Below, piece by piece: positions 7,353 to 46,635 of a stretch of 64,000 bases of DNA. How positions within the stretch are numbered: the stretch's first letter is position 1; each line of letters begins with the position of its first letter. The stretch covers positions 1,801,135 through 1,865,134 of the forward strand of contig BCGQ01000001.1 in the NCBI GenBank assembly GCA_001599355.1, in the 5' to 3' direction. A program made the translations under genes and the position numbers. The stretch comes from Nakazawaea peltata (lineage: Eukaryota > Ascomycota > Pichiomycetes > Alaninales > Pachysolenaceae). Under the pieces are notes generated by a model. It had not been told where the DNA came from. It saw only the letters and a list, made by a program, of their open reading frames with translations, and did no database searches.

Positions 7353-10300
7353 TTTATGGGGTCTGCAATGCAGGTCAATTGGATCCTTCTTTATCTCAAT
7401 TCGTGTTGCTTTATCTCCTGCTAACTTTCCAAAAACCGTGCTAAAATTCTCCGTCACCAACTACATGTACAATCCTATACTGCACAGTCCATTTTAATAC
7501 AACTCAGAGAAAGCTAAAACGTTATTTTGCCTGAGTTCATCAGTTGTAGATAATATTTTACTAGATGAGTTCGATGCATGAAAAGCAATCTGATTTTTTT
7601 TTCCAGTTGAGCTATGGAAATCTCCGAGCCTGGGGAAAGATTTTTTTTTATTTGCTGAATGACGCAGACGCACCGAAGAAACATGACATCGGGGTAATCC
7701 GAGACTAGATGAGTGGGGAACATCGATTTGGAAGATAATCTGATTTTCCATGCATTAAAGGAAGTACATAATTAGGGATCTTCTTATTAACATTCTATGC
7801 AATGAGAGAAGATATCTAGGCAAGAGTAATGATTAGCTACGAACTGTCTCACTAATTGTGCTACAATACGGCTGCCATGGAAAGCATACGGATGTAAAAT
7901 GTGCGCTTCGGAACTATGCGTGTTTCCAGAAGTCCATGTTTTTTCACATGTTTCGTCATCTTGCAGCCAATCTCGTAGTTAGTGTTTCTGCAAAGACCCC
8001 AATGTATTTCGGGCCGGGAGAAGACCTCTTTAATCCGGAAACGGCGATATCCAGAATCTACTTCAATATAAAGGAATTGATGGCGTTTCGCCTACTAGGA
8101 ACTGGAGAGCCCCATTTCGGTTCGCTTTTAGACGGAAACTGTATGTTCAATGACTTTTTGAGGACATTCCCCTCCTGTTATATAATCACTAAAAGTTAAT
8201 TGGCGAATGAATCCCATATAGTTTGAGTAAAGATCATAAACAGCACTCAAAAAGGTTGGATGCATGATCTAACTAACGCTTGCTTACCTCATCGGTAGAT
8301 AATCTATGAAAATGAAAAGTATAGATTCACCGTAATTTTTTTTTCACTATCGAGTGGCCCCATCTTCGGCAAGAAGTCTATAAGCCCGGAACTCGCGTGT
8401 CAAGAAATGGATCACATGGCTAGACAATAGGAGATACGTGATTCCAGACGTCAAAACCATCCCGGTATTCTCCTTCTTGTTTCGTAAATTTTTTTTTTAG
8501 TCAGCTCATTTTAACCTGATATTATGAAAAACCGTCTCCACTAGTGTACACGCCCCTTCTGGGACACAGAGAAGAGTGTTTTAGACACGATCCTCTTACT
8601 TCCAGTTAAAATATTTTTTTTGCAAATCCATTGTAGGAAAGATTTGCAGTTTCTCAGAGTAGTGGGGGTTTAACGCATGCACTGCCAACTTTAAAGACAA
8701 ACCCTTCAATTAATACGAAAATCTTTATGTATTCCGCGGTGCGAGGGAGCAGATAGCTTCAGACACACTTCAAGACCCTTGGTTTCAGATAAAATATTGA
8801 TAAGCCCATGAAGAAGTGCTCTCTACTTGGGGCTAGCAAAATCTGCTAAAAAAACAGCAGGAAAATCAAAAATTATTTAAAAAGAAACGATTTGGGGGTA
8901 AGAAAATCAGCACTATGTAGTGTGCAAGAAAGAAGTTCACAAATCTCATGATACGTACATACAATAACAAAGGTACGCATCTCAACAGTCAGCTGCATGA
9001 AACAATAAAAAATAGGCACTATTAAAATCTGTAGTGTCTGTAGCCAGTAAAAACAGACACCCTAGCTGCAGCCTTTGTGAGAAAATTTCTCTGCATCATA
9101 TGAAAAGCTTCCCACAATAGGAAGCTTTCACCCTTTATTACGTCGTTTCACGTAGACCCAGAAAGATAGGTCTGCCGCTAGGGATACGGCCAGGTAATAC
9201 AAAGCATATTACAGCGGCATCTCACAATATCAGCTCCTGCACTTCAAACAAATCAGCCTATCCCCATGCTGAAGAGCTCTGGTTGTCACCACAAGATAAC
9301 TTATTACAGGGGAGAAGATGCTCAATGATTCCGAATTTTTGTGTTTTTCTTTGCAATTATTTTTCACTTTCTCCTCGGGCGCTCGCTTGGGGCCTCGGAA
9401 GTACAAAAAAAGGAAAAATCAAGGAAAAAACATGGAGAAATTTGTGGAAGGCTTTAGGGATCCACGGGTTTGCCATAGTATATTTACTCTAGAGTGCACA
9501 CTCTTTTAACACAGATTACTTCTTGAAAAATTTATTACGACTCAATGAGTGATACTCAACATGATTGAGAGGATTGGAACCCCATTTCACATCCTATTCT
9601 CATTGAAGTCTCCTCTTTTTGAGAGCTCGATGTTGTACGGTGTTTCACGTATAGAAACAAGCTCAAAGAAACTGAAACATTGTCACAGATATGATTCAAA
9701 AATCTAATCTACAAAAACCACTGGGACTTTATCGGAAGTCATCTTAAGGTCCCATTATGACTCGATGAATGCCTTTCATGGGCGATCCTCCTCTCAGACG
9801 GCAGCTAAGAATTCTAATTGTCTAATGAAATGTTCCCCTTAACACAATACCATGGGGATTCATTGATTTAGATCAAACATATCCTTGCAGTTTATACGCT
9901 TTTGCATCTACATGTAATTAATAAAATTATAAGGCGTCACCATTCGATGAGAAACAACCATACAAATAAAATCTACGAAGAGCTTCTTTCCTAATTAGGG
10001 AATTTTCGAAAACGTATGTTATGCCTCAACTGGCTTTTGAGATCGAAGTAAAAGAAATAACTATCACGAGCGAATTGAGTTTTAAAATCTGTTTTATTAC
10101 GTAGTTTTGAGAATATTACATCGTTATTGCTCTCTAACTCTGTCAGACTCCGGATGAGCACTTCATTTTATTGTAATAGCACAGAGTCCATGTAAGCTCT
10201 GTTATTTCCTGTGGTTTTTTCTAATTGCTGAATAACTAGTAGGTAATAGCTCCTCGTTTTATTATTCCTCCTCGAAATGATGACTACTGAACGGATGAAA

Positions 10301-10714
10301 GCAAAAGAAATCCACCGGTGGTGAACTTTGCGCAACATTTCTTTTTTTACTTGCAGTGCATGATTACCCTTTGTGCGCATGCAGAAATAAAGGAGTCTGG
10401 TCCAAGAGATTATATCTTGATTTTTGCAGCATGAGAGACACTTCGCAAATCTAGTCACTAAAGACAATTTGTTTACTGAGTGCCATGGAGATAAGCTGAA
10501 TAATTTTTATTCTTTTTCTTTTTTTTTAAAAAAAATCCTTTGGCTTATCCCGGGTGACAGACCGAAAATCATATATAACTTTTGAAATATCCCTCGGATC
10601 TTCAATCTGAGGCAGTTCGAATAGCTTGACTCTTGCAGTGACATAAAATATAAAACAAAAATTTTAAAGACTAATAGTCAACTACTATAATCACTAATAC
10701 CGTGAGTGAGAACG
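7353..10714. other. 3.4-kb gene-free stretch upstream of the first zinc-finger gene
   Basis: I see no convincing gene. The open frames present (for example 7858-8199 and 9283-9509) begin at non-ATG codons or match no recognisable family. Visible structure: many poly(A/T) runs, including T9A8 at 10518-10534 about 180 bases before the zinc-finger ATG, and a hairpin with 9-base arms AAAGCTTCC/GGAAGCTTT at 9104-9128. The sequence is not noticeably AT-enriched compared with ordinary spacers here, and no tRNA or snRNA signature was found. I infer a large regulatory region for the gene at 10715, possibly with untranslated transcripts. Confidence 0.5.
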
Positions 10715-11710
10715 ATGACACAGCTCTCTTCACCCATGCCACCCCAAAGTATAGACTCTGATAACGTCAAGAATGAATATTTGATGAACACATTACTTCA
10801 AATGTCCCTGAATATGAATGAATTACTTCAGCAGATTCTTGGATCAGGTGAAGCAGTACCACTGTTCAAAGAACCATTCTTCACACCAAAGGATGAAAAT
10901 TATTCTTTGGAGAGAAACGACAGCACCTCCAGTTCCATCTCCCAGATGAACACACAGCATATTGACTCATATCTTCCAATCCCACCTCCAGCACTTCTAC
11001 CGGCCGATGCAAATATTATTAAGACTGTTCCTAACCCTGTGTTTCTGGACAATAACATGGCAAGGCTGTATTTCAACCTCGGTAGCTATTCGCCTAGTCA
11101 TGAGAGAAGGAATGCAGTTTGCATCACAGATGACAGACAGCTCTGTATTCTGCTGACACATCCCGTTCAGCAGTTTGGATATAACGATGACCGGAAGAAT
11201 AGCCAACAAGACTACGAAGATGAAGATTATGATGATTATGAAGAAGAAAATAACGATTTTGATGAACATGCCGTAAACTCTGTTACTGGTAGCTCTCTTG
11301 GAGCGGGAACAACTCCTGATGAAGAGCAGTCAGTTGAAGTTTACTCTGCCACATCCCCTCAAAAGACGCTACAATGTAAAATTTGTTTCAAGCAAATCTC
11401 TCGAGACATGAAAAGACATTTAAGAGTACATAGTAGAGAGTCAAGATTCCATTGCATATTTCCACACAAGTTTTGTCGTCATAGAACTCGCAAGTTTAAC
11501 AGACCTTATGACTTCAAAAAACATTTATTGAATGCACATTTCAAATTTGATGATCCAATTCTGAAAAGACTTCCGAATTTGACCGACAAATTAAGGCATT
11601 TGGGTACTTGTAGCTGCGGTCAACGTTTTAATGCCGAAGACTGGCTTGAACAGCATTTACTCACAACTGACATAACAAAAAAGTGCATCATGATCAAGGG
11701 AGAGCTTTGA
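10715..11710 (+). CDS. C2H2-like zinc-finger transcription factor, paralogue of the gene at 15972
   Basis: The first ATG is at 10715 (the frame opens at a GTG three codons upstream), giving 331 residues. The N-terminal two thirds are low-complexity, with an acidic stretch (DYEDEDYDDYEEENNDFDE) that may activate transcription. The C-terminus holds three zinc-binding units: C221-X2-C224-X10-H235-X3-H239; C247-X6-C254-X15-H270-X4-H275; and C299-X1-C301-X12-H314-X9-C324. Between them lies NRPYDFKKHLLN, then HFKFDDP. About 60 of 96 positions in this block are identical to the second gene by eye, with no gaps. The spacings differ from a classical TFIIIA finger. I infer a sequence-specific DNA-binding regulator; I cannot name an orthologue, although C2H2 cell-fate regulators of Candida (for example WOR4) are worth comparing. 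Very long non-coding flanks suggest complex control. Confidence 0.85.
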   Translation: MTQLSSPMPPQSIDSDNVKNEYLMNTLLQMSLNMNELLQQILGSGEAVPLFKEPFFTPKDENYSLERNDSTSSSISQMNTQHIDSYLPIPPPALLPADANIIKTVPNPVFLDNNMARLYFNLGSYSPSHERRNAVCITDDRQLCILLTHPVQQFGYNDDRKNSQQDYEDEDYDDYEEENNDFDEHAVNSVTGSSLGAGTTPDEEQSVEVYSATSPQKTLQCKICFKQISRDMKRHLRVHSRESRFHCIFPHKFCRHRTRKFNRPYDFKKHLLNAHFKFDDPILKRLPNLTDKLRHLGTCSCGQRFNAEDWLEQHLLTTDITKKCIMIKGEL

Positions 11711-14700
11711 TTAGGAAATATTGTATAGTATAGAAGGGATTCAATCGAATCACAAATAGCTGTTAATACAAAAGAAATTCATATCTAGTTACTCTTTTCG
11801 GTAATAAACTGACTTCACAAGAATTTTTCGCTAAGTTCGGTAGTAATGTTCGATGCGCAAGAAAACTTCGATGACCAGGAAGTTGGCGGATTTTACGTTT
11901 CTTTTTAAAAAAGAAAATTCCGCCGCGGTCAGCAATGTAGGAAACCCATAATAATAAAGTGGGACAAGAGGGGCAATATAATTCTAGGCTTCTTCCGTGC
12001 ACGAAAAATGATTTCTTTTGAATCTCAGCCACGAACGTTGCCATTCAAAGATAACTCTCAGATCCTTGTTGAAATGGGATACATGGCTTTGATTGGTGCT
12101 CAGATCTTAATAAGATGAAACAAGCATACTACGACTGGCAAAAGTGCTGAAGACTGTGCATGGCATAACAGGAAGAATAAATTTGTCGAATGCTCGTTTT
12201 TCCTTACGTTTGCAACTAGCCGCGGGTTACTTGAAGATTCTTCACCCGGAATCTAGCGTAGTAATCCTCTCTCGTAATTCGCTTCTTTTTTCTTTGCGTG
12301 ATCCACGCATGTCGTCTATTTTTTGTTTTCGTATTTGGGTGGAGCAATTAGTGGGGTAAGATGCTGAGGGATGGCGCCATTGGTGCCATCCAGAAAGGCA
12401 GGTGACTCGGTAAATGCTCAAGAAAACCATTAATGCGTCCTTCAGACAGACGACGGGTCTTGATTTCGAGAAACTAACCGTTGAATATTTTTTATAAGCA
12501 ATTACATGGCTCAGGTTGCTGCTAAAGATTGTGCATGAGCTTCTTTCTTTGCATAGAAATTTCTGTTTTTTTCTCTTTAAAGGGTATGGAACGGATTCTC
12601 CGACTTACACAAATATGCGGATTTCACTGCGGCAGATGGCCTGTTCCAAGGCAAGATTCTTCAAGATAACGATATTTAAAAGTCTAGATGTACTGTTATC
12701 GCTAACTCATCAAGTAATGCTAGAACACAATTACTTCTTCTATATAAATGCAATTGGGCGATCAATTGCATGAAAGCTCGAGCAAATACTGTCTGCTATC
12801 GACAATGTCAACAATATCGATTTGACTATTTGGGAAGATTTGCTGAATGTAATTATAATTTCTCTCGAATAGTGTTGTTATGTGAACTTTATTCTTCTTA
12901 AATATTTTATGGCCTGATATTTACAAACTTGACAGATCGCTAAATGAAAACAACAAACATTATACGAAACCCCAGTTTTACCCTAGATAAGAGAAATGCA
13001 GTAGTGATTACAAGGGGAATTGAGTGACATGACAAAACAACAATAGTCAATAAAGCAGCCGAATCGTAGCCCTCAGTAACTGTCGCTTGTCTTCTAAATA
13101 AACACTCAATATACGTAAAAATGCTTAAAAGCCCTTCGGTAAGCCTGCTTAAACAAACCCTTTTGTCCAATGTGCAGATTAGGATCAAAGCAAAATAAGA
13201 ATTCGAACAGTTACCAGAGAGAGATATATTATTGGGGACTATAAATAGACAGAGTGCGGGGTTGTTAACAATGTCAAAGAATCTAGAATGACAATACCAC
13301 AGTTGTGATCAACGTATAGATTTTGTTTTGAGAGTGCTAAGAGTTTGGTTTGAGAGTGGAATCCAACTAAACACAGATAGAGACAGGAACTGGTCCCTTT
13401 TCCTAATTTCAGATCTGAAGTTGTACAAGTTACATACATAATCCTGAGTGGTATCGGTGAGATCCAACCAATTCAATTGATTTTGAATCACTCAAATCAT
13501 AAAGTCAATCATAGATTACACTAAGTATTTCTTTGTTGATTGACGCTCATAGAGTTAGACTAAGAAAATACACGGACAACGTAATTTAAACTTTTCTTCC
13601 CTAACTTCTGCGCAGCGGTTTTTGAGCTTATAGAGCATTCTATGAAGTCATTTCATCTACGTCTGGGGGTATAATATTACCAGAAAGAGTGTTACTTTGC
13701 CCCTCTATTGATGCAGTTGTGGCTAAAGTAAATATTTATTCCTTCTACTTGGACGATGTAGCGAAGATTTGGAGAGCAACTGGGACACTGTTTCCTGATG
13801 AAGCTGTACAGATCATTCACGGTAAAAGTTGTCAAATGTTAGATGGATACATAGTGGATACAGATTTCAAACTATAAATGTATGGGGAACAAAAAAACTC
13901 AAAATTAAATAAGTTGCTAAAACGTAGGGGTACTAACATGATTGAGACAGCAAGATGAAATTAATCAATAGTGCTGCTGATGTAATCATCTTTAAAAAAA
14001 GACTTTAGGCCCGATGATCTTGGACTTGAGGAATCGTTCATGTAAAACCTAGATTTCATACTCCGTCAGACCTTTGGTAATGCCTTCATCGTTCAAATTC
14101 TATTTTCCACCTCATTTCATATAGATTTCCAACTTGAATTGACAGTGGTAAAGAGATGCACTTGAGAAGGGAGGCGTCATAGTGACCCGCGACCCTTAGA
14201 TGACAAATAGTGTATGTCAAACGGAATTGCCACTTCTGTTATCTCCATTTGGCAGTTAAATGCACTGGCTCCGTAGCTATGGGAGTCAAAATTTTCACAT
14301 GCCTCTATTACCCTACATCACTCTGTTTAAGGCACAAGTATGAGGCAGAATCGTAGATTTCACTCATCTTGGCCTTTTCTTACGTAATCGGAAAGATCCT
14401 GCAAGACACTAGTTTCTATTTCCTACCCCTTTGGGAACTTAACGCCCGTTCTCGGATGCATGATCAAATTGGATCTGAGCAATTAAAGAAAAAATAAAAA
14501 AAGACGGAAAATAATTAGCTATAGTTTTTTTTATTTAGAATTAGGGAGAACTAATTTTTGGGTTGACTAAGCAGTAATAATCCAGTAGACTTACCAAGGC
14601 TATGGAATCATGTCTGCCTGCAGCTTCCCAAGCCTAAGTAAGGAGTTCTATAACTTGCCAAGCCCTGTTGCTTTGCAATAGGTCGCTCGACAGGTGGAAG

Positions 14701-15971
14701 TCCCCACAAGGGAAAGTGAATTATACGCGGACCACTCTAGTAGTACCCTTAATTCGATTCATTGGAGAATGGCCGTGTACGTCGTCTTAAATTTAGAAGA
14801 ACTCCGTAACTCTATATATCTCCCTGAGCAAGGGTTATCATGTGATTGTTTATATAGTTCTCTGTTTTAATATTCCCAGTAGTACAGATGTCCTCGCCTT
14901 GAACCCCATTTCATTTACTTGACTTCAATCTGACAAGTACCGGAACTCCTCAATTATACCAACTATGCCCCTAGGAGTTGCCGAAAAATACTCGGTGAGA
15001 GAAGTCATTTCTCATAATCTGCACCAAGGGGTAATGTCCTTCGTTTGCCGCGAGCGACGAAAATTTTCTAAAGTTCTGTCAATTATCTGCAGTACAATAA
15101 GGCATTGTTTGGAGCCTTTCGGTCGCCTGCTAAAATCCTTCCAGAACAATTAGAACCCTCTCACTAGTGTCATCTGGCTTACTTTACAAATCATTATACG
15201 AGATGACCCCAACAACCCATCAGCTTGGGTACGTCATGGCCATGACTGTTTTATGGTTTGCTTAGCGAAAACCAAGTTTTTAGGAAAATAAATCATACTT
15301 TTCTGTTCGAGAGACTGAATCTTATCAAGTTCATACGATCAGCTACTACTGTGAGCTATTCGCTCCAATAAATCTAAGATCCAGAAGAGTAGGTCTGGTT
15401 GATTTGGTGCATCACCAGGTATCTCTGATTCGGGTGTACCTCGCGATCGCTAGATTCCCTTAGACGCTGCACTTATTAATGACATTACTAATACCACAAC
15501 CTTTAATTCCGATTATACCTCAAGTATCAACAAATCCTCTATGTATTCCGCTCTTTGATGCGCATCATCACAGCAATCGGATTCAAATTTCCTTCTGCGG
15601 CTATTTTCCATGCGCAATTCTAGAAGGAATAAGCCACATTGCATCGCTTCCTTTTTGAACTTTATTTTATCAGTTTCATGCGCACGGAGCTAAAAAAAGA
15701 ACACGGAGCACCTATATTTCCTATTTTGTCTCGTTAGCCTGTGAAACTGAGATACATTGTGGTTATGCATATTGTCAACGCCGGTATTCTGCATGTTGGC
15801 TCGGAATTCTCATTTGCTTTAGTTGTCTCAAGAGGATATACAGCTCAGTAGGGGCCAACTGTATAAATTGATTTGAAAATCCACCATGTTTTGACGCAAG
15901 GAACTCTATTCTATACTATAATTCATTGAACCATAATCACTTTATTGTGTCAAGATTAACTTTGACGAAAC
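11711..15971. other. 4.3-kb gene-free stretch between the two zinc-finger genes
   Basis: No gene is recognisable here. Small open frames (for example 12144-12359, 12516-12773, 13689-13877, 14965-15153) match no family and look like chance. A near-perfect hairpin lies at 12369-12391 (10-base arms GGATGGCGCC/GGTGCCATCC, one mismatch, 3-base loop). Gene spacing of this size is far above the rest of the window. It includes the 3' end of the first zinc-finger gene and the presumed upstream control region of the second. ATAATCACT occurs shortly before both zinc-finger ATGs (near 10690 and 15934). Confidence 0.5.
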
Positions 15972-17303
15972 ATGAATCACTCAAACCCAGCAGTTAGCAT
16001 GTTGGAGTCTTATAACACTAAAAACGATATGTGGTTTGTTAATAACGACGGTACAGAAAACTTATTTCAGATGCCAGTGAGTCAATCAAGTGAGGAAAAA
16101 TATTCCAAGGCATCACTCCCTATGTCTGATTACTTGGGAGCAAACAGTGAACAGTTCCCCTTGCTGCGCCAAGGTGTTGTTTCCGACTTGCACTCTATCA
16201 CTGCTGAAGGATTGAAGATATATGAACCCTTAATTAGGGGTTCGACGGGAATGCTTCTTTTGAATTTGATGCCAAATCAAGGATTATCAGATGAACCAAT
16301 TAGCCTTGTCCCTGTCCCTCCAATTAGTGAGCCGGTTAACTCCCATTATGTTCACAATGGAACAAATAAGTTGCTTTATTACCCTCCTACTATGAACGAT
16401 AATACAACAAACCCAAGTGTCTCTAGTAGTACCGGCTCATCTCTGTCATTGCTGTACACTGACAGCACAGACCTCAGCTCTATGATGGACACTCCAACAA
16501 AACCGGCTAGTCTGATCTTCCAGTCACAATTGTCTCCATATCTTCTACAACAGCTGGATCAATTGAATGGCTATTTGAAGGCTACCGCAGTTGCTCAAGA
16601 GAACTACACTACCCAATTGTCACAATTAGATGATAGAACTGATGTTGCTACTAGAATGTTGTCTGATTGTACTACATTTTCCCAGAACTGGTCAAATGAA
16701 AACCAAATACCAGAGGAATTCGACCTGTGCTCATCAAATGAGCACTCCTTAGTTGACGGAATTGTCTCTCAAAGTGAATGTTCATCCCCAATTGAAGATT
16801 CGCAGTTGAAATTCGATATGTCAATGTCTGACGCTGTCCAATCGCCGCAAATGTCCAACTTCTCAGGGAAGAAATTACAAAAGGGATTATCCCGTCATAA
16901 AAAAGAAGGTGGAGCTTCCCCTAAGGTCTGCCCGGTATGTAAGAAGACTATTCGCAGAGACATCTCGAGACATTTACGTACACATGAGCCAGTCTCAAGA
17001 TTTAAGTGCCTCTTCCCTAAACCATACTGCCGTCATAAGACTGGTCAATTTAACAGACCTTACGATTTCAAAAAGCATTTGTTGAACTCTCATTTTAAGT
17101 TCGATGACCCTAATATCAAGAAGTTACACAACTTGAACGAAAAATTGGAGCATATTGGAACTTGCAGTTGCGGATTAAAATTCACTGCTTCGGTATGGTT
17201 AAAGTCGCACATTTTAGTTTCATCACCTCAATACAGATGTCCATACATCTGGCAGCATAGCGAAGAAGGGCATGAGGAAGATTCTACAACGGCATGTTCG
17301 TGA
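15972..17303 (+). CDS. C2H2-like zinc-finger transcription factor, second paralogue
   Basis: The ATG at 15972 gives 443 residues. The N-terminal 300 residues are Ser/Asn/Thr/Gln-rich, without obvious domains and probably disordered. The C-terminal module repeats that of the gene at 10715 with identical spacing: C320-X2-C323-X10-H334-X3-H338; C346-X6-C353-X15-H369-X4-H374; C398-X1-C400-X12-H413-X9-C423. FNRPYDFKKHLLN is unchanged except for the last residues before HFKFDDP. A further His/Cys-containing tail (HSEEGHEEDSTTACS) follows. The pair lies in the same orientation, consistent with an old tandem duplication whose N-termini diverged. It is probably a nuclear regulator; target genes and orthologue are unknown. 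CTG codons in the N-terminal half may encode Ser. Confidence 0.85.
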   Translation: MNHSNPAVSMLESYNTKNDMWFVNNDGTENLFQMPVSQSSEEKYSKASLPMSDYLGANSEQFPLLRQGVVSDLHSITAEGLKIYEPLIRGSTGMLLLNLMPNQGLSDEPISLVPVPPISEPVNSHYVHNGTNKLLYYPPTMNDNTTNPSVSSSTGSSLSLLYTDSTDLSSMMDTPTKPASLIFQSQLSPYLLQQLDQLNGYLKATAVAQENYTTQLSQLDDRTDVATRMLSDCTTFSQNWSNENQIPEEFDLCSSNEHSLVDGIVSQSECSSPIEDSQLKFDMSMSDAVQSPQMSNFSGKKLQKGLSRHKKEGGASPKVCPVCKKTIRRDISRHLRTHEPVSRFKCLFPKPYCRHKTGQFNRPYDFKKHLLNSHFKFDDPNIKKLHNLNEKLEHIGTCSCGLKFTASVWLKSHILVSSPQYRCPYIWQHSEEGHEEDSTTACS

Positions 17304-19292
17304 AGAGATTTTCTTAACTATAGCTGTCTTCGAGACCTCATTTCTCCCCTGTTTTGGGGAGGCATTCTGCATTGACCTTTCTGGGTTTTTTTTTAGTTCT
17401 CCGTTCGAAATAATTTAATTTTAATGCCTAAGAAGCTTGAACTTTTTGTTCGTGTCTTATAATTGTCTTTGTTATGATAAAATGTAGTGTTCTGTATCTT
17501 TATTATTTCTGGAACAAGACAGTGGCTTCGTTTTTACTTTTATTTTCCGCCCCTTTGAAAATCTAGAAGGACAAGCCGACTAGCCTTGGCTGCTGTGCAA
17601 GACCAAAATTCAATTGATTAATTGTTCAAAGTTGGAAGTTCACAAAAGAAAATAGCATCAGAAGATAGTTACCGCGATAACTTGTCAACATTTACCTCTG
17701 AAGCTTTACCAATTATTACAGTAATCAAGAAAAATGAAACCCCCCTCGTAAACAAAAAAAAAAAATCTGAAAAATGTTACACTGGTACTAGAATTTTAGC
17801 GTTCTTACATAGTAGGCTTCAAATGTGAAGCAGCAGACGCACGTACAGATTTCTTGGGAATATAATGGCCGATGCGCTTATTGCTAGCTTCCACTACCGA
17901 CACTGAGGAGGAGTGCGAGAATTAATACCCGATTGGTAAAGAGGTGGTAAGTCTTCCAAGAATATCTGCGTTGTTTCTGGGCTGCAACAATTTTTCAGTC
18001 AAATCTGGTGCCTTTTTTCTCGTTCATGAATATAATCTTATAAACGTGGCTGAGATCAATTCTAGAGTACTAAAAGGGCTAGAGTCGAGACAATAAATTT
18101 ATTACTACTACGATTGAACACCCGATGAATTTACGCTTAGACACAGGGCGGGTCAATCGGTCCCGGTAATCATGGATTGTCTTTCCGAACCCATTTTTTC
18201 TTAAGACCATACTTCTACTATATAATATCGACTTATAATTTCGGTTCGCCTAATTCAATCTCGAATTCTTGAGTGTTGTCTCGTTTCCAGCAATATTCTA
18301 ATCCCTCTGCCTCTTGCTATTTTTTTGCACTTTAACGGTGGTAAGAAAATTTTTCTCTAGAATAGTTAGCGCAGCTGTGTATGCAGTGAGCACCCGACAC
18401 CTGCATCTTGTGCAGCTATTGTTAATATGCATGGAAAACAATTGGAACCCTCTATTTCAACTCTATAGAGGGCAATGATAACACTTAACTATCTGTTATC
18501 ACCGGTTAGCCTATTTATGATTCGTTAAGCGAGTATAAAATTAGAAATAATATTCTTGAGGAAACCTTGAAAATGTTGCTTTATATAATATGGTGCCAGA
18601 CGTTCAAGGATAGTTAGTTGGTACCACTAAAAGTGAAATTGGTCGAAATTTCAGATTGACTGAAAAGAATCATCAACGGAAGTGAAGTTACATATCCGAT
18701 ACGACTTTTTTAACATCCCTGATCTTTCGGTTCAGTTCAGTTCAGCATAGGTATGTATTGCCGACAAGATTTCTAGATTAAGTGATTCTTGCGATCGGGG
18801 GCCTCGTGAAAAATGCAAACGAGCGAGAAAAAAAAAAAAAAAGAAATAGATAACTCAAGTGCAGGATAGTTTTTGCGTATGCAGCCGCAGTATTCCAGAA
18901 TATGTAGAAGCCTTCGACGACTGCGCTGGAGAAGGTCTAGAAAACACGTCACACCCTCAAATGCCGACATGCTACATGACTGGCGGATTGTAAGATCTAG
19001 ATAACAAGATAACCCACGTATATCTTCTTTGTTGACTCGTATTTTTGACCCAAGTTCTAGCCTTAATCCTACCATAATTTGTGATTCCTAGTACCCTGTG
19101 CACTCCCTTTTCCCACTCCCAAATCGAGTTCACTAAATATAGAAGGGAAAACTATTGAGGCTCTTTCCGTTCTGCCCCATAACCAATTTAGTTATGCGCG
19201 CACGACTTTTACCTGGGCTCAATGAGGTACGAAAAGTAGGGCCATCAAGATAAAGTACCGGGTCGTGGAGGGACCATAAGTCTGAGTACATC
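17304..19292. other. 2.0-kb gene-free stretch between the second zinc-finger gene and the BAR gene
   Basis: No gene is evident. Open frames at 17622-17828 and 18773-19075 match nothing I know. The stretch contains A-runs near 17752-17764 and 18828-18842 and a poly-T near 17386. A CA/CT-rich block near 19100 precedes the BAR gene. It presumably carries the zinc-finger terminator and the BAR promoter, but it is longer than either needs. Confidence 0.5.
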
Positions 19293-20819
19293 ATGTCGTT
19301 GAAAGGTGCAAGAAAGGCGATTTCGCGTGCTCCTCATCAATTGATGGGTCACGCTATCCCTCAATATTCAGATGACACCTTTTCCACTTGGGAGAAAGAT
19401 CTCCAAACTAGTATACATGGATTGAGGTACATACAGACGGAGACCTACAATTACCGTGGGATATTTAAGGAGTTTCTTGAGAAGCAATTGAACATTTGTC
19501 TGCTTATATCGAATGAGCAAGTAATCTTGAGTGGGAACAATGAAGGAGAAACTTCCGACATTCAAATAATACGTGCTTTTAGATCCCTCCTTGAAGATTT
19601 GATACCACAAATCTCATCTCAATTTGATCAACTCAATGATGATGTTGGTGAGCGGTGTAAAGAATTGATTGCATATCTCAACAAGATCCTCAAAATGATC
19701 ACTAAAAGAGCTCATAAGAAGATCGATTTGGAGATTCATTCCAATAACGTCCAGAAGATCATCCAGAAGAAACTGCTGTATACCGAGAAAGACATGACCA
19801 CGTTATCAAAAGAACAAGAAGCATTGACTATCTCAAGGACTATCTTCACCGAGATCGATATCAAGGTGAAATTGATTGTCCCAGAGGCATTGGAAACTTT
19901 TGCCGAGATTTTATCTAAGTTAACCTTAGTGCTATCTCTGTCTCTCAAACGTATTTATCTGACCGTGGCTAAAGCGTTTCATGACTTTTCTAGACATCAA
20001 GGTATATCATCTACAGATATTGAAGCGATTATTAATGAATGGGAAACGGATTTCTCTTCCCCAAAATATAAACTTGACTCGATGAGTGTGATCAGAAAGT
20101 ACCGTAGTGGAAGTGGATCGTCATCTCCAAGTGTGGCTACGGTCATCACATCTACTGGGAGCAAATTGAAGAAAACAGCAGTGCATATCGGGGACAAAGC
20201 TCAAGATTCTACACAACTGATCATTCAGAAGGGGTTTCACCCTCGTAGTACTCATTTGAATTATAAACATCTCACAATCGAGAACCCTGTCCAGCCCACT
20301 ATGGAGACAGGTATCTTTAGTTCACTGGCTGATCCACTACATCAAATCGATAGTGTAGAAAGTATATTCCCAAACACGTTATGGGGAACTTCTGACCCGT
20401 CTAAATCACCTGCTCTCAACAATAGCAGCTGGTTGAAACCCCTCTCACTTCGAAAAAATAGGCAATCTTCAACTCCAATGTCACCTCTGGCTGAATCGGA
20501 GAGATCTTTCAGCACAGTAGTAACCGATTCCGATCTGAATCCTCTGCTGAGTTCATCTCCTCCTACGCCAGATTTAACAGATTCTGTACTAAATGCTCAT
20601 CCTGACCCAGTATCGTCTCAGAAATCTATCGATCTGCTTCTCCACGAGATCAAACAAATCAAAAAAGCCCATAGTAAGCATTTGGAGGTGAAAGGTTGTC
20701 ATGTCAATGGAGCCTTCAATAAGAAACTTGTCCATGTAGGAGATGCTCTGAAATTTCAAGTGCTGGCTAACTCAACCTTGAGTTCAAGGTTACTACAACT
20801 GTACAAGAATGATGTATAA
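19293..20819 (+). CDS. BAR-domain protein, Rvs161/Rvs167-related, without SH3
   Basis: The ATG at 19293 gives 508 residues. The N-terminus MSLKGARKAISRAPHQLMG matches the amphipathic N-BAR start of Rvs167-type proteins (MSFKGFKKAI-like), followed by a helical BAR region to about residue 240 (FSTWEKDLQTSIHGLRYIQTE, LKRIYLTVAKAFHDFSRHQG). The second half is Ser/Pro-rich and probably disordered, ending in a Lys-rich segment. No C-terminal SH3 domain is visible, unlike canonical Rvs167. CUG-clade yeasts carry extra Rvs161/167 paralogues (the Rvs162 and Rvs167-3 type in C. albicans), and this is probably one of them. Expected role: membrane curvature at endocytic or other actin-linked sites, probably as a heterodimer. 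It is convergent with NUP85, with only 20 bases between stops. Confidence 0.8.
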   Translation: MSLKGARKAISRAPHQLMGHAIPQYSDDTFSTWEKDLQTSIHGLRYIQTETYNYRGIFKEFLEKQLNICLLISNEQVILSGNNEGETSDIQIIRAFRSLLEDLIPQISSQFDQLNDDVGERCKELIAYLNKILKMITKRAHKKIDLEIHSNNVQKIIQKKLLYTEKDMTTLSKEQEALTISRTIFTEIDIKVKLIVPEALETFAEILSKLTLVLSLSLKRIYLTVAKAFHDFSRHQGISSTDIEAIINEWETDFSSPKYKLDSMSVIRKYRSGSGSSSPSVATVITSTGSKLKKTAVHIGDKAQDSTQLIIQKGFHPRSTHLNYKHLTIENPVQPTMETGIFSSLADPLHQIDSVESIFPNTLWGTSDPSKSPALNNSSWLKPLSLRKNRQSSTPMSPLAESERSFSTVVTDSDLNPLLSSSPPTPDLTDSVLNAHPDPVSSQKSIDLLLHEIKQIKKAHSKHLEVKGCHVNGAFNKKLVHVGDALKFQVLANSTLSSRLLQLYKNDV

Positions 20820-20839: not shown

Positions 20840-22918
20840 CTAACATTCATCTAAGAAACATAACCCTATTTGGTAGTTGATCTTATCTCTGACCATGCTC
20901 ATTAACTCAGGTACATTGCTAGGCAATGAACCGTCGATTAACTCCAATTGGAATCTCCAATCATTAGCTTTATCTTCTACCTGTTCCATGTATTCTTCAC
21001 TAACCATCAGACGATATAACAGTTCACATTCTTCATATGCTTCCACTACATCTTTAGGAGCATTTTCTTCCGAGTATTTTGATGACACTTGTGACTCGAA
21101 ATCTGACAGTAATCTCAAACTGGTGATAAGGTGTGACTTCTTGATAAAGTTTCCTGAATTTGCTCCAATCTGAACCTCGGATTTGGAGACATGCAAAAAT
21201 GGTGCCAATTGACACAAGAGCAAAGGTATGTACTTACTAGGCAAGTAAGGGAATTGGATCAACTGAATCAAGTATTCTATCAGTTCTGTATACTTATTCT
21301 CAGATTTGTTCAATAAGAATAAGTAGAAAATAGCATAAGGTGCCAAAGATTGTCTCAATGAGTCGGAAATTTCAAGATCATCGTCGGGGTTGGGGTTTGA
21401 GATTAACATATTTATCAACTCATCGGCAACTTTTTGACTCTTAAGCATCGAGTTCTCAAGAAGTAGCCAACATTTCTCTCTTAATGCCAGTAAATCTCCA
21501 CTTCTTCCTAAAAGAACTAAACTTTCATATATATTTCCCTTGTCGAACAACTTTTCACCGTTTTTAATGAGGATCGAAGTCAGTGTAGAGTGGAGTCTTA
21601 ATTTAGCACAAATTGACAAACACCATTCCAAATCATCATTAGTTGAACAATCATAGTTTGGTAAATATTCGGCAACGACCGAACGTGAATCATTGGTCTT
21701 CATATTTAAAAAGATACCTACACCAATTGGGATCAATTTCTGAATAGAAAGACATTCTAATCCATGAGAAATCAATAATGGTTCAGAAATTGATTTATCT
21801 TGGTCCTCTAAAAGGAATTTGTATCCACTGTATAATCCTTTGGCTTCGAATAAAACACTGGTGTAAGTTGCAGATGGGTGATCTAAAACTTCTAAACTCT
21901 TGATAACATTCAAATAATTACCCTGCATGGCATCAATACAAGCTTGTTCCCAAGTCAAAAGATCATCTGAGGTGTTCTTAGACACGAAATTCTCCAAACT
22001 GGATTTGAAATATTCACTAATGAAGTTCTCTGAAGGTAATTCAAAGAGATACTTCAGCAAGAAACATTCATACCAAGTGTCAGTATTCTTTAATATTGCC
22101 GAAGCAGAGCCTGTCATGATACTAACAATCTCATGAATGGCATTTTTGATGACAGAATTCGTCACGTTCAAATTTCTAAAGTTGTCTCTTAACTCACAAC
22201 ATTTCTGTTTCCAATGGATGAAAAGTTTGTTGTCCATACTGAACAGGACAGTGTCATACGAAGATAATAATACAGCCAAATCCTCTATCACCAAAAAGAG
22301 GTCATTATCAGAAGATTCAAGCGATTGGTATTTGGATTGCGAAATGGCATTCACCAGCTGAGCAAATAATCCTCTAGTGATCAACTTCTTAAGGTAAGAA
22401 GTCCAGAACAAAACATTTTGACATGGAGGCTTATCACCAGAGAGGACGGTCTCTGCAAGCTCCAAATCCGGTTGAATATCAGCTCTATTCACCCAGTTAA
22501 TAAACAAGACCAAGATCTCATCGGTAGTGGAATAAAATAAAGCACTTATTAAGCTCAAGATATTCATAACCTCCTCCAATTGGACCAACTTGGTGTCTGG
22601 GTCATCTGGGTCTTCTTGAGCACTTAGCTTGGTCTCGATCAAAGAATCCAAATCGGCAATCAATTTACTGATCGAAGAGTTCAAAATAAGCTGATTCTCG
22701 TGGTTCTTGATCAGCTTGGTCTTGGAGTCCTCGGCTATCACTATTCCAATGGCATCAGAAGGCAGATCATCGAGCAGAATGAAATCGTGATAGCTCTTGT
22801 CCTTGATCAAGTCCTCGAAATTCTGGAAACAGTTCTTTAAATACAAGTAGTACTCATCGGAGTGGTCATCTATAGTGACGGTTGGGTTGAAAGTGAGTTC
22901 TTCGTCACCAAAAGTCAT
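20840..22918 (-). CDS. NUP85: Nucleoporin of the Y-complex
   Basis: The ATG at 22918 gives 692 residues (S. cerevisiae Nup85 is 744). The protein is almost wholly alpha-helical, with the WxxxL-rich pattern of the ancestral coatomer element: NVLFWTSYLKKLITRGLFAQLVNAI, DTWYECFLLKYLFELPSENF and LEWCLSICAKLRLHSTLTSIL. Nup85 is a scaffold arm of the Nup84 (Y) complex of the nuclear pore, binding Seh1 through its N-terminal blade, here the region around residues 1-50 with EELTFNPTVTIDD. It shows no membrane segment or signal. Assignment rests on overall character and these segments, so it is good but not absolute. Confidence 0.8.
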   Translation of the reverse strand: MTFGDEELTFNPTVTIDDHSDEYYLYLKNCFQNFEDLIKDKSYHDFILLDDLPSDAIGIVIAEDSKTKLIKNHENQLILNSSISKLIADLDSLIETKLSAQEDPDDPDTKLVQLEEVMNILSLISALFYSTTDEILVLFINWVNRADIQPDLELAETVLSGDKPPCQNVLFWTSYLKKLITRGLFAQLVNAISQSKYQSLESSDNDLFLVIEDLAVLLSSYDTVLFSMDNKLFIHWKQKCCELRDNFRNLNVTNSVIKNAIHEIVSIMTGSASAILKNTDTWYECFLLKYLFELPSENFISEYFKSSLENFVSKNTSDDLLTWEQACIDAMQGNYLNVIKSLEVLDHPSATYTSVLFEAKGLYSGYKFLLEDQDKSISEPLLISHGLECLSIQKLIPIGVGIFLNMKTNDSRSVVAEYLPNYDCSTNDDLEWCLSICAKLRLHSTLTSILIKNGEKLFDKGNIYESLVLLGRSGDLLALREKCWLLLENSMLKSQKVADELINMLISNPNPDDDLEISDSLRQSLAPYAIFYLFLLNKSENKYTELIEYLIQLIQFPYLPSKYIPLLLCQLAPFLHVSKSEVQIGANSGNFIKKSHLITSLRLLSDFESQVSSKYSEENAPKDVVEAYEECELLYRLMVSEEYMEQVEDKANDWRFQLELIDGSLPSNVPELMSMVRDKINYQIGLCFLDEC

Positions 22919-23543
22919 AGCGCTGATGTTAAAATTAAGGGAATGGCGTGGATTCTTCGGGTTGGGTATTAATGGTGTCGTGCTGTAGTCTGTAGATCCC
23001 GAATTTACTCCAAATGATTGTGATGAATATCCAGATGGTTACCCTTCTTCCAATTCCTCATGGTTTTTGATCGCGAAGAGAAAGGATTTTTGTTTGGGTA
23101 TTTGAATTACTTAGAATGGAATTGAGTGTCCACGACCTTCGGAAAGGAGTAGGAAATTTATAGGGAAATACAGTGAGGGAATAGCAGGGAAATACTGTAA
23201 GAAAAAGCGCAGAGGAACACTGTAGGAAAACTGTAGAGAAGTACTGTAGGGAATGTATAGGGAAATACTGTAGGGAAATCTAGAGGGAAACACTGTAGGA
23301 AAATTTAGGGGCTATTAGGAAATAATATGCGGGAATGAATTTAGGGGCTATTAGAGGATGAATTAGTAGAGAGCACGGTGAATGGAAGGTGGAGGGAAAG
23401 TAAGAATGGCACATATATTAGACCATACACTAGCTAGAGCCTGAAATATCATACAGCAGTAACCAAAAATAGGCACACCATAGCATACCACATATATTAC
23501 AATATTAATACATATTTATACAACATCCTGATACACTACCATT
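22919..23543. other. Intergenic region upstream of NUP85, containing a degenerate tandem repeat
   Basis: No gene is recognised in these 625 bases. The first part is the NUP85 promoter. From about 23100 it becomes purine-rich and repetitive (listed separately). The last 150 bases are AT-rich with ATATATT blocks that fit the 3' region of the tail-anchored gene, whose stop is at 23544. A minus-strand open frame at 23111-23293 is only a shadow of the repeat. Confidence 0.6.
23155..23355. repeat. Degenerate short tandem repeat with core GGGAAATACTGTAG
   Basis: The core GGGAAATACTGTAG and close variants (AGGAACACTGTAGG, AGAAGTACTGTAGGG, GGGAAACACTGTAGG) recur about eight times over some 140 bases, with 12-20 base spacing. 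A second unit, GGGGCTATTAG, occurs twice right after it. The copies are imperfect, so this looks like an old or fast-evolving minisatellite, or a cluster of binding sites, between NUP85 and the tail-anchored gene. Confidence 0.75.
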
Positions 23544-29528: not shown

Positions 29529-29611
29529 TTTAATGAATATATGATACTTAACTTAATCGTAATCTATCTCAATGATATCTTTATTCGCTTATATAATACA
29601 AATGACACAAA

Positions 29612-29919
29612 TCATTGTGGTCTTCCTCCTGGAACCATCTAAAATATGTTAGTAAACTGAATATGGAACGATTTTTTCGCTTGTTACTTACCATTGCAAT
29701 GTTATTTCCATTCAACAAAAGTTTTTTCTGCTTAGTGGTGGTTCCATCTGGGTTGAATTCGGTGACATCTTCCAAAACCATATTGACAAAGTCGTCGAAA
29801 CCAACCAATTTGCCAGTGAATTCTTTCTGGTGGGTCAATATCACGTAAATTTCAGATCCAATACATTTGTCGATCAACTCTAACGGTAAGATGGTAGATG
29901 GTGCACTCTCAGTAGACAT
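29612..29919 (-). CDS. LSM5: Sm-like protein of the Lsm1-7 and Lsm2-8 rings, spliced
   Basis: Two exons on the minus strand: 29919-29692 (76 codons) and 29638-29612. The 53-base intron (29691-29639) begins GTAAGT and ends with TTTACTAACATATTTTAG, an exact branch point. Splicing gives 84 residues ending [15 protein letters not shown], matching the Lsm5 C-terminus; the unspliced frame would end in an unrelated tail. The Sm fold is visible in [42 protein letters not shown] (Sm1) and [11 protein letters not shown] (Sm2). It takes part in U6 snRNA binding and mRNA decapping. The first ATG is at 29919; the frame starts six codons earlier at a GTG. Confidence 0.93.
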
Positions 29920-30147
29920 CTTGGTATATATGGTCACCTTTGAATAATCTGATTGTCTCCTTAATATGAACAGAAATGGACTAACCGCCGAGCTGAGTGG
30001 TTTTCGTTGAGTGGTGGATATGACTTCCTAGTTAGGATATTTCCTGATATGGAAATTTGATCAAACGAAGAAAAAGAGGAAAATTTGTTGATCAACGAAG
30101 AGAAGCGGCGGTTGATACCAGCAGAGACAGAAGAATAACAAAGCAAG

Positions 30148-39081: not shown

Positions 39082-39149
39082 GGCGTCAAGTGGTGTACTT
39101 CAAAGGAAGGGAAATATGATAGGAAATTATAGGGAAGTAGGGGAAGGGA

Positions 39150-39215
39150 TAGGGGGAGGTTAGGAGGTTGGGGTCAGGAGGTTGAGGCTAGAAGATTCAG
39201 GTTAAGAGGTTGATG
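39150..39215. repeat. Purine-rich AGGAGGTTG-type repeats upstream of HCS1
   Basis: AGGAGGTT, AGGAGGTTG and AAGAGGTTG variants recur about four times in the 294-base spacer between HCS1 (start 39081) and the ATP7 stop (39376). The rest of the spacer holds the HCS1 promoter. The repeats are degenerate and possibly slippage-derived. Confidence 0.6.
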
Positions 39216-39375
39216 TCATCACTCACACTACAGTCTCTACACAATTCAACAATGGAATATTTATTATGATACAGTCACCAACCCTTCTAGAGCCGATGGA
39301 ACCGTGTCTATTTTATTTAACGTTCATTAAAAAACTGGCATGAAAGACGATATAGGAGATTCAAATCTAAACTCC

Positions 39376-40095
39376 TTACATGATGGTAAGGTCACCGAAC
39401 TTCTCCTTGTAACCTGGGACTTCCCATCTGTTGTTCTTGATCATATCCAAGACCTTGTCGTTGACGTCTGGTCTGGCCTTAAGAACGTCTTGGACGGTCA
39501 ATTGGTCGAATGGTCTGGCGTTTTCAATGTTACTCAAAGTCTTCTCCAAATCTTCCAATTCCTTCAATACAACGGTTTCGGTGGCCTTGGCGTTCTCGAC
39601 AGCCTTGGCTTGGAAGGATTCGATCAAGTTCAATTGCTTTTGTAAGTTGACCTTAGCTGGTTGGAAAGCAGTGACATCCTTCTCAATGGTGGAGACAATA
39701 TCTTGATTCTTCAAGGTGGCCTTGTAGTGAGCGAAGTCAACCTCAGTAGCTTGTTGCTTCAATTCGAACAAGGTCTTTCTAGCTTCGTCGTTTCTCTTCT
39801 TGAAAGCGGTCAAAGAAGCGGCGGTGGAGCCGGTCAAACCCAACTTGGAGATGATGTGAGCCCAGTCGATCTTGGAGGCAGCGGATTTCTATACTTAAGT
39901 TAGTAATTGTCAATTTCAATTGAGTGGAAATGGTGATATGGTACGGTTGTATCATGTGTAACAGCGCTCTTTCAGTTAAACTTATTAAGCAGCACTTAGT
40001 GCTCGATTGAAGGATTTACCCATCAATCCATCACGAATCAAAACCGCCCTTATCACACATGCTCTTTAATCCCAACTTACAGCAACAGCAGACAT
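39376..40095 (-). CDS. ATP7: Mitochondrial ATP synthase subunit d, spliced
   Basis: Two exons on the minus strand: 40095-40081 (MSAVA) and 39888-39376. The 192-base intron (40080-39889) starts GTAAGT and ends TTACTAACTTAAGTATAG. The joined product has 175 residues (S. cerevisiae Atp7 is 174), beginning MSAVAKSAASKIDWAHIISKLGLTGSTAASL. It also has FKKRNDEARKTLFEL, ARPFDQLTVQDV and the C-terminus YKEKFGDLTIM. It is a peripheral-stalk subunit of the F1Fo ATP synthase at the inner mitochondrial membrane. A CCAAT box at 40214-40218 (TCATTGGC on the coding strand) lies about 120 bases upstream and fits HAP-complex control of respiratory genes. Confidence 0.97.
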
Positions 40096-41164
40096 ATTTA
40101 GTGGTGTTTCAACTTGTATATGATACAGACAAAAGTATCGATCGAATACGTTTTTTATTTCTTCAACTTCAAAATCCTGTTGTGATTTTCGAGTTTTTCG
40201 CTTTGGATTTTGGCCAATGAGAGACGATTTTGGGGAGAAAAATTTTATTTTAATTTGTTTGCGAGTGTGGGGAGCGGAATATTAAAGGGAGGGGGGATAC
40301 AATTGGACGGAATATTGTGCACTACTTTTTGGTAGAGGTGAGCAAACTATTGAAAAGTGAAGAGAAAAAGTAAAGAGGTTGAGAATAATCTTAGTATGCC
40401 AAGATCGTGTGTACGTGTGTGTTTTTTTAGCAGTGATATTTGTTTGTGTGATAAAAAAATGCCTAGTGTGTGTATGGCTGTGTTTGAGGGTGTTGTGAGT
40501 GTAATGCCTTGATCATATTAGGTACAAAATCTAAGTTATTGAAATATTACCCCACTTGAATTGATGAACTTGACTGAGAGATTCCATAATCTTCTTCCAA
40601 TATCTTCCGATATCCCCTGATATCTGGGCCTACTTCTATCTGGTACCTATTCCTATCTGGTGCCTACTCCCCATCTTGCACTTACTAAACGATCCCGATC
40701 TCTCATACTTAGCATTTCGCTAACATTTTTCCCCGGCCCCTCAATTTCCTCTTTAACTTTTAGCGCATCTGTTTCTCTGCCTATTTTCGGTGACTATTTT
40801 CCCTAAGTATCTCAGATTATTTTTGGTTACTCACATCCAGTTCTTGACCAGTAGATAACAACAATTTACTAGTTTAGCACTGACATCGATCTCCGGTCAG
40901 TTCATCCTTTCACCCAAATGTCTCTCTCTCAACAGTCTCACTCTAATAATCTCACTTCCGTCTGCTCCCTGCTCATTGTATCCCCAAATTTCCCCCTAGT
41001 AAAGTTACCCCCCTCTCTTTTTTAATTTTCCGCTATCCATCGCACATTTCGCCCTATTTTCTCCCATTTTAACCGCCAAATCAAACCACTACACAACACC
41101 ATCTGCCATCTGCCATCTGCCACCTCCCACTCAGTCTAAGCCGCCCCCAACCCCCCGTTCGTCC
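40096..41164. other. 1.1-kb divergent control region of ATP7 and the Zn2Cys6 gene
   Basis: No gene is recognisable. Contents: the ATP7 CCAAT box at 40214-40218; GTGCACTAC at 40317-40325, matching reversed sites elsewhere; a GT-rich tract around 40405-40500 (GTGTGTACGTGTGTG and similar); and a pyrimidine-rich leader from about 40980 to 41160 with three tandem CATCTGC repeats near 41102-41118. I infer that the length reflects complex control of the regulator at 41165. Confidence 0.55.
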
Positions 41165-46110: not shown

Positions 46111-46338
46111 GACTAACTGGTTGGCGCTATGTCCAAGTGATCTTTGCAGTTGAGTTGAGTCGCGTTCGAGTCGAATCTCCGAGCCCCTTTAAGTCTTCAG
46201 ACGCTGAGAATTTCTTAAAATTTGCCCTATTTTTTTGCTAAGAAAATACGACAAAAGGGGCGCAAAATCTTGAAATTCAATTCGATTTAAAGGGCAAATT
46301 AACTAAAACGAGTCTTAACTATTAACCGAATAGATAAG

Positions 46339-46635
46339 ATGGCTTTAGGAAAGATCTTCCATTATTCATTTGACGCCTTGTTGGTGTCAGTTCTTTTAGC
46401 TGCTGTTCACCGTAATACAGGTTTGGTTTTCAATACCCATGAGTTTTCTTCAACCGATATCAGAAGTGTCTTTGTGAGATACCTTGCAGTAGGAGAACTG
46501 GGTTATGATTATTTGGTTGGAACTATGAAGAGATCGGGATATTTCACCCAAAAGAATGTCACTAGTGTTGATGATTTGAAGAACAGAGTCAAACAAACTG
46601 TGAATGAATTTATTGATGAGGCGGGGAAGAACTGA
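46339..46635 (+). CDS. Small DUF1748-family protein
   Basis: The ATG at 46339 gives 98 residues. The start MALGKIFHYSFDALLVSVLLAAVHRNTGL closely follows the fungal DUF1748 pattern (a K-hyHysFDailvStvLAgv-RrtG motif, from memory), with one hydrophobic helix. The C-terminal 30 residues are polar (DLKNRVKQTVNEFIDEAGKN). The family is small, conserved across fungi and poorly characterised; I infer a membrane association, probably mitochondrial or endomembrane. It is divergent from SWD2. Confidence 0.75.
   Translation: MALGKIFHYSFDALLVSVLLAAVHRNTGLVFNTHEFSSTDIRSVFVRYLAVGELGYDYLVGTMKRSGYFTQKNVTSVDDLKNRVKQTVNEFIDEAGKN

Follow-up and report, generated by a model that had tools for sequence, protein, structure and literature searches.

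Two paralogous C2H2 zinc-finger genes in a word-rich, gene-poor tract of a Nakazawaea peltata contig: a possible oversized cis-regulatory domain

The gene-poor tract and its gaps

Contig BCGQ01000001.1 of the yeast Nakazawaea peltata (assembly GCA_001599355.1) was analyzed over 64,000 nucleotides (positions 1,801,135 to 1,865,134 of the forward strand; hereafter the window, numbered from its first letter). The window contained a gene-poor tract of approximately 12 kb (7353-19292) with just two long open reading frames (ORFs), both of them plus-strand genes for C2H2 zinc-finger proteins (ZF1 and ZF2, Table 1). The strongest new datum of this study is that all three gaps around these genes exceed every other spacer of at least 200 bp in the density of Efg1-type words (short DNA motifs). 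We give about even chances to the explanation that an old pair of tandem, Stp-like C2H2 genes sits here in an oversized cis-regulatory domain with input from an APSES regulator.

The tract is bordered on the left by the start of a divergently transcribed protein kinase gene (7352) and on the right by a gene encoding a BAR-domain protein (19293-20819), which we take to be Rvs-like; gap 3 is the upstream region of the latter. The ORF list of the window, made with CTG read as serine and with ATG starts, comprised 29 ORFs of at least 150 amino acids, and the window was free of undetermined bases (N). The initial annotation had described gaps of 3.4, 4.3, and 2.0 kb around two small regulators, in agreement with the measured lengths (Table 1), and had put every other spacer at 1.1 kb or less, which was borne out after the placement of genes for ATP synthase d and a Mitofissin-domain protein. 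The 28 other spacers had a median of 253.5 bp, with top values of 801, 863, 1080, and 1276 bp when the first exon of the ATP synthase d (ATP7-like) gene was left out; with this spliced gene in place, the largest spacer outside the tract was approximately 1.1 kb. Repeats in the tract were short and chance-like, the longest being 32 nt at 75% identity.

Table 1. Features of the tract and small genes placed elsewhere in the window
Feature	Position	Strand	Description
Gap 1	7353..10714	+	3,362 bp; between divergent protein kinase gene and ZF1; ZF1 upstream region; gene-free in scans; 14 TGCAT and 4 ATGCGY (5.35 per kb)
ZF1 TATA-like box	10572..10577	+	-143 from ATG; another at -66
ZF1	10715..11710	+	331-residue C2H2 protein
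ZF1 three-finger domain	11375..11695	+	residues 221-327
Gap 2	11711..15971	+	4,261 bp; ZF2 upstream region; gene-free in scans; 16 TGCAT and 7 ATGCGY (5.40 per kb)
ATGCGCA cluster	15558..15684	+	three places, the first reading both ways; span of about 130 bp, about 290-410 bp before ZF2 ATG
ZF2 TATA-like box	15862..15867	+	-110 from ATG; nearest upstream ATG at -86
ZF2	15972..17303	+	443-residue C2H2 protein
ZF2 three-finger domain	16929..17249	+	residues 320-426; 58% identical to ZF1
Gap 3	17304..19292	+	1,989 bp; downstream of ZF2, upstream of BAR-domain gene; gene-free in scans; 7 TGCAT and 2 ATGCGY (4.52 per kb)
LSM-domain gene	29584-30027	minus	codon scan and Pfam; below 150-residue cut
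ATP synthase d (ATP7-like) gene	39379-40095	minus	Pfam match at 39379-39888; first exon start at about 40095 from donor and branch signals
Mitofissin-domain gene	46303-46632	plus	Pfam; within an apparent 1.25-kb spacer; below 150-residue cut

No gene-like frame turned up in the gaps when stop-to-stop frames of 40 or more codons were scored against the codon usage of the window: the best frame reached 8.3, and the four genes inside the tract or next to it scored 27.6-68.2. The scan works, since it revealed missed genes elsewhere in the window, namely the ATP synthase d, LSM-domain, and Mitofissin-domain genes. Translated in six frames and scanned against Pfam (E ≤ 0.1), the three gaps returned DUF3109 alone, below threshold (E = 0.026; 14.8 bits, cut-off 33.5), and searches for RNA genes gave no tRNA in the whole window with ARAGORN and no Rfam match at gathering scores in the window or at E ≤ 1 in the tract. 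Two candidate pairs, neither convincing, came from a consensus donor-branch scan of the gaps. A spliced gene at 7936-8299 (donor at 8141, branch-like AACTAAC at 8271) was rejected, its hand-assembled product having approximately 71 residues and its frame not being among the best-scoring ones. It is extremely improbable that the gaps are filled by long non-coding transcripts or genes with short ORFs that escaped detection: many unannotated transcripts have been described in such regions of Candida albicans (PMC2924316), and non-coding transcripts would be compatible with all of these scans, but there was no coding signal and no Rfam match, and the two donor-branch pairs were unconvincing.

The two zinc-finger proteins

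The C-terminal parts of ZF1 and ZF2 shared 62 of 107 residues (58%, E = 2e-45; remaining reported matches E > 1), which confirms that the two genes are paralogous, as had been proposed. Of the residues identical between the two proteins, 61 have degenerate codons; 29 of these were encoded by the same codon, when 29.5 would be expected from codon usage alone, and with codons shared at chance level, synonymous sites look saturated and the duplication old. A comparison of gap 1 with gaps 2 and 3 gave two matches, the better with E = 0.46; shared promoter ancestry is not visible.

The three fingers, read from the sequence, follow the layout C-x2-C-x10-H-x3-H, C-x6-C-x15-H-x4-H, and C-x-C-x12-H-x9-C. 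The N-terminal parts differ in character, that of ZF1 being acidic (net charge of -24 over 216 residues) and that of ZF2 rich in serine, threonine, asparagine, and glutamine (37% over 315 residues). Pfam assigned no family to ZF1 and only a sub-threshold Di19 match to ZF2 (18.6 bits, cut-off 27.5), and Zn_clus was found in neither protein at E ≤ 0.1. The finger layout seems to resemble that of Saccharomyces cerevisiae Stp1 and Stp4. In BLAST comparisons with provisional Stp1 and Stp4 reference sequences, the ZF proteins scored 32.7-38.9 bits, above the shuffled maxima of 26.2-29.3 bits (200 shuffles each), and hhalign gave probabilities of 90 for Stp4 and 94 for Stp1 with the same references. 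The likeness to Stp proteins is a lead suggested by sequence and not proof of membership. The N-terminal regulatory region of Stp1 and Stp2 is processed by an amino-acid sensor protease.

Identity with Rme1 was rejected on comparison of the finger layouts; a provisional Rme1 sequence scored 18.5 and 20.0 bits in BLAST, below the shuffled maxima of 24.3 and 25.0, with an hhalign probability of 3. AlphaFold modelled the finger domains poorly (mean predicted local distance difference test scores, pLDDT, of 54.6 and 59.5), and the two models were given no weight; a Foldseek search with the second model (pLDDT 59.5) returned 18 matches, none at E ≤ 0.001. A profile search of the PDB at E ≤ 5 retrieved 28 sequences, mainly generic zinc fingers, the best at E = 0.0084. 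Contig collections of viruses and of bacteria and archaea were also searched for relatives of the domain, and none of the 151 and 36 pattern matches was confirmed, a result that is uninformative on rarity among yeasts. In a literature search, with subscription papers mostly outside its reach, no account came up of two Stp-like genes lying in tandem within long gene-free DNA.

Efg1-type words in the gaps

Words were counted on both strands of the gaps (9,612 bp in total) and of the other spacers (11,245 bp). A total of 34 patterns was tried, several of which were variants of one word; five were labelled controls, one of which (ATGCA) is merely the reverse complement of TGCAT and hence no control. 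The Ndt80 and Efg1 words were taken from papers, and the remaining regulator labels are provisional. A study covering four species of Candida used TGCAT as the Efg1 consensus (PMC8075579), and the Efg1 words include TGCAT and RTGCATRW as well as the in vitro motif CATGCGY (PMC8980467, PMC8075579).

TGCAT was counted 37 times in the gaps, compared with 11 in the other spacers (hypergeometric 1.2e-5, uncorrected). Under dinucleotide shuffling, approximately 22 occurrences were expected (1.7-fold excess), and 37 was reached in 0 of 200 and 3 of 300 shuffles (p = 0.008 with 500). The longer words were also in excess under both the dinucleotide and a second-order Markov null, including RTGCATRW (8 occurrences; 2.7 expected, p = 0.014, and 3.7 expected, p = 0.046, respectively), CATGCGY (5; 1.0-1.1 expected, p = 0.002 and 0.006), and ATGCGY (13; 5.2-5.5 expected, p = 0.002 and 0.006). 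When TGCAT and ATGCGY were taken together, the other spacers that measured 200 bp or more, 19 in all, reached a maximum of 3.79 per kb and a pooled density of 1.15 per kb, and all three gaps were higher (Table 1). Windows of 1 kb held 1-9 sites in the gaps, 0-3 in the other spacers, and a mean of 1.7 in coding sequence (44 windows).

Unbiased rankings pointed to related words. CTGCA topped the 512 5-mers for enrichment in the gaps over the other spacers (34 vs. 6; 3.9e-7, uncorrected), and ATGCGCA ranked first after poly(A) among 7-mers compared with shuffles (6 vs. 0.7; p = 0.002 under the second-order null), with 5 occurrences in gap 2 alone, where 0.4 were expected, and a cluster close to ZF2 (Table 1). 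This word partly overlaps the in vitro Efg1 word CATGCGY (PMC8980467). No enrichment in the gaps was seen for Ume6, GATA-factor, or Rme1 words, the Rme1 word ACCTCAA occurring once against 1.5 expected.

The initial annotation had further proposed cross-binding between the members of the pair, and we regard a self-contained two-member circuit, in which ZF1 and ZF2 bind each other's regulatory DNA, as quite unlikely. The genes are adjacent paralogues whose fingers are 58% identical, and the enriched GCGCA (20 in the gaps, 7.8 expected) could be the pair's own site. Stp3 and Stp4 bind TGCGCTA-like DNA, but this word was not enriched, with one occurrence in the gaps and two in other spacers, no motif was found for the pair, and ATGCGCA is already explainable by the in vitro Efg1 motif; the proposal thus gained no support.

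Promoters and composition of the gaps

Tracts of poly(dA:dT) of at least 8 nt numbered 11 in the gaps (1.14 per kb) and 4 in the other spacers (0.38 per kb), and coding sequence had none; long A/T tracts of this kind may fit nucleosome-poor promoter DNA. Upstream of ZF1, such tracts lie at -196 and -187, and no ATG occurs for 230 bp. TATA-like boxes stand 110-143 bp before both ZF genes, as they do within 300 bp of 11 of the 27 genes examined (9 of 25 when ZF1 and ZF2 are set aside). From these signals, both genes look to have ordinary proximal promoters, with a short leader read for ZF1, and the long 5' leaders that had been suggested for the pair are not favored; distal transcription starts are possible.

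The guanine-cytosine (GC) content was flat, at 0.383-0.388 in the gaps and 0.388 in the genes, and for the genes inside the tract and at its borders, the GC content of third codon positions (GC3) was 0.38-0.43, inside the range of the window (0.31-0.65). These values bear on the reading that a small regional centromere of the kind known from CUG-Ser yeasts occupies the 4.3-kb gap or all of the tract, which resembles such centromeres as a gene-free region of several kb. Gene-free regions of 4-18 kb have been described at centromeres of C. albicans (PMC7263194), ORF-free regions of 2.1-2.6 kb are given in six table rows on Candida auris (PMC8262905), and unique, repeat-free sequence occurs at such centromeres too. 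In C. auris and its relatives, the group for which the trait is described, centromeres coincide with troughs of GC and GC3 (PMC8262905). Since the tract has flat GC and no GC3 trough, a C. auris-type centromere is unlikely; moreover, no long inverted repeats were found, and a centromere would leave the enrichment of words in all three gaps unexplained. Overall, we hold a centromere at this locus to be very improbable, with a little room for one of the C. albicans type on unique sequence.

A more serious alternative, doubtful in our view, is that the gaps are mainly inert, a neutral spacer grown by gene loss or expansion whose words reflect unselected genome composition from which the compact spacers and genes deviate. 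The dinucleotide distance (delta*) between the gaps and the other spacers was 83, compared with 56 when the other spacers were split into two halves; gaps 1 and 2 were nearly alike (25), with 51-58 to gap 3. Inert gaps would be hard to reconcile with the excess of long A/T tracts, with the ATGCGY excess that withstands the second-order null, and with the fact that both genes of the tract encode regulators, a class expected to have long upstream regions; in addition, apart from the sub-threshold DUF3109 match, the gaps carry no remnant of a gene or transposon detectable by Pfam at E ≤ 0.1.

Several results weigh against the explanation of the tract as a regulatory domain. The GC dinucleotide was close to expectation in the gaps (ratio of 1.07) and depleted in the other spacers (0.73) and the genes (0.72), and the composition of the gaps can be read as a neutral signature, which is the chief reason for doubt. 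The TGCAT excess fades under the second-order null (37 vs. 28.5, p = 0.11), does not stand out in any single gap under dinucleotide shuffling (p = 0.056-0.088), and does not extend to the palindrome ATGCAT (6 vs. 3.3, p = 0.11). Non-Efg1 words were gap-rich as well when compared with the other spacers, namely CATGG (23 vs. 4), TGCAA (28 vs. 7), and AAGCC (17 vs. 2). These words and the fading of the TGCAT excess also favor the reading of the gaps as inert. The word-richness of the gaps is therefore partly explained by composition, and this is the strongest objection. Words of Wor1, Ndt80, Tec1, and Ste12 were not enriched in the gaps (the Wor1 word TTAAAGT occurred twice, with 3.3 expected), nor was the MCB-type ACGCG (2 vs. 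5.4), although Efg1 has been reported to be able to bind MCB (PMC8980467). The distribution of sites is also uneven: five of the six ATGCGCA counts fall in gap 2, CATGCGY is missing from gap 3, and gap 3, which lies upstream of neither ZF gene, is nearly as word-rich as the others. At least one of the 44 coding windows of 1 kb reaches 7 sites, the maximum, level with the better gap windows. Finally, the Stp-like assignment itself is provisional.

Genetic code and other genes of the window

CTG made up 245 of the 13,842 codons in 27 genes. In alignments of the Ndi1-like, Swd2-like, and kinesin proteins with solved structures, read by eye, none of the 16 aligned CTG codons met leucine, and decoding as leucine was rejected. 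The residues met were A, I, S, K, A, and A in the Ndi1-like protein (6 of 7 positions covered), A and D at the two positions of the Swd2-like protein, both covered, and M, Q, I, S, N, T, D, and E in the kinesin (8 of 10); three further CTG codons of these genes lay outside the alignments. The decoding is probably that of a CUG-Ser yeast, as judged from these sequences.

The ATP7-like gene lies in an apparent 2.08-kb spacer (39082-41164), of which 1,069 bp remains as spacer. It has an apparent intron after the first few codons and was absent from the ATG-based ORF list, and its main exon has GC-rich third positions (0.647), in which its neighbours differ. A degenerate tandem array of 24-bp units (approximately 6.7 copies, 23149-23310) was found in the 625-bp spacer upstream of a Nup85-like gene (20840-22918, minus strand). 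In the other spacers, CCCCT/AGGGG was more strongly in excess (47 vs. 22.6 expected) than in the long gaps (15 vs. 9.2), as if both kinds of spacer used different regulators.

A possible regulatory domain

The richness of the gaps in words that resemble binding sites of Efg1, a known regulator of cell shape in yeast, suggests a densely controlled gene switch, without proving it. In the regulatory-domain explanation, an orthologue of Efg1/Sok2, an APSES regulator, would bind many sites across the gaps and, together with other factors, would set the expression of both genes from the nearby TATA promoters, so that the pair may be a node with dense wiring in a programme of development or nutrient response. 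In our analysis, the size class of the gaps, the density of APSES words, the A/T tracts, and the listing of STP4 and STP2 among switching regulators count in its favor. Because non-Efg1 words are gap-rich too, we place this explanation at even odds and keep inert spacer as a doubtful but weighty rival.

A bolder version, which we consider unlikely, is that the Stp-like pair is an undescribed developmental switch node within one shared 12-kb, super-enhancer-like domain, in which the Efg1 orthologue would control both genes at dozens of sites and the ATGCGCA cluster near ZF2 would let APSES input or the pair itself lock the state.

If the regulatory-domain explanation is true, a new gene pair would join the developmental regulators linked to oversized intergenic DNA, and Stp-type factors, which are known mainly as nutrient regulators, could be hubs under APSES control. 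The locus would, in addition, be a simple case on which to test whether regulator hubs can be recognized in raw sequence alone by gap length and APSES-word density.

Comparison with known systems

The proteins appear to share with Stp1-Stp4 of S. cerevisiae and C. albicans the three-finger order, the pattern H-x4-F-x-R-x-[DY] in the second finger, and CG-x2-F-x4-5-[WF] in the third; they differ from this family in the tandem arrangement of their genes and in lacking the extra finger of Stp4. For C. albicans, STP4 and STP2 are listed as affecting white-opaque switching and as having upstream regions bound by core regulators (PMC7793994). The values given there for the Stp4 mutant are 3.3 for white-to-opaque and -2.2 for opaque-to-white switching (PMC7793994), and those in a second review are 3.25 and 0.47 (PMC7826875). 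Rme1, which in C. albicans controls chlamydospores and regulates itself (PMC7718266), is likewise a developmental regulator of transcription but has a finger layout unlike that of the ZF pair (hhalign probability of 3, as above). Czf1 has a Zn2Cys6 cluster (PMC3384613) and is of another kind than ZF1 and ZF2, which carry C2H2-type fingers.

The comparison with master cell-fate regulators of Candida made in the initial annotation was sound in kind, given the size class of the gaps and the Efg1 words, and too specific in naming Candida, since CUG-Ser decoding alone is supported. The tract differs from the loci of the Wor1/Efg1 circuit in holding two tandem paralogues, in the lack of enrichment of Wor1, Ndt80, and Tec1 words, and in showing no sign of long leaders. 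In C. albicans, intergenic regions bound by Wor1 have a median length of 3,390 bp, compared with 623 bp genome-wide, in an old annotation and of 1,346 bp, compared with 262 bp, in a new one, and WOR1 itself has approximately 6 kb of bound DNA (PMC2924316). The gaps described here show the same length feature (1,989-4,261 bp, compared with a median of approximately 254 bp within the window). Like the upstream regions of WOR1, EFG1, and CZF1, the tract joins regulator genes to intergenic DNA several times the usual length that carries Efg1-type words, and the locus appears to be a new instance of this known kind.

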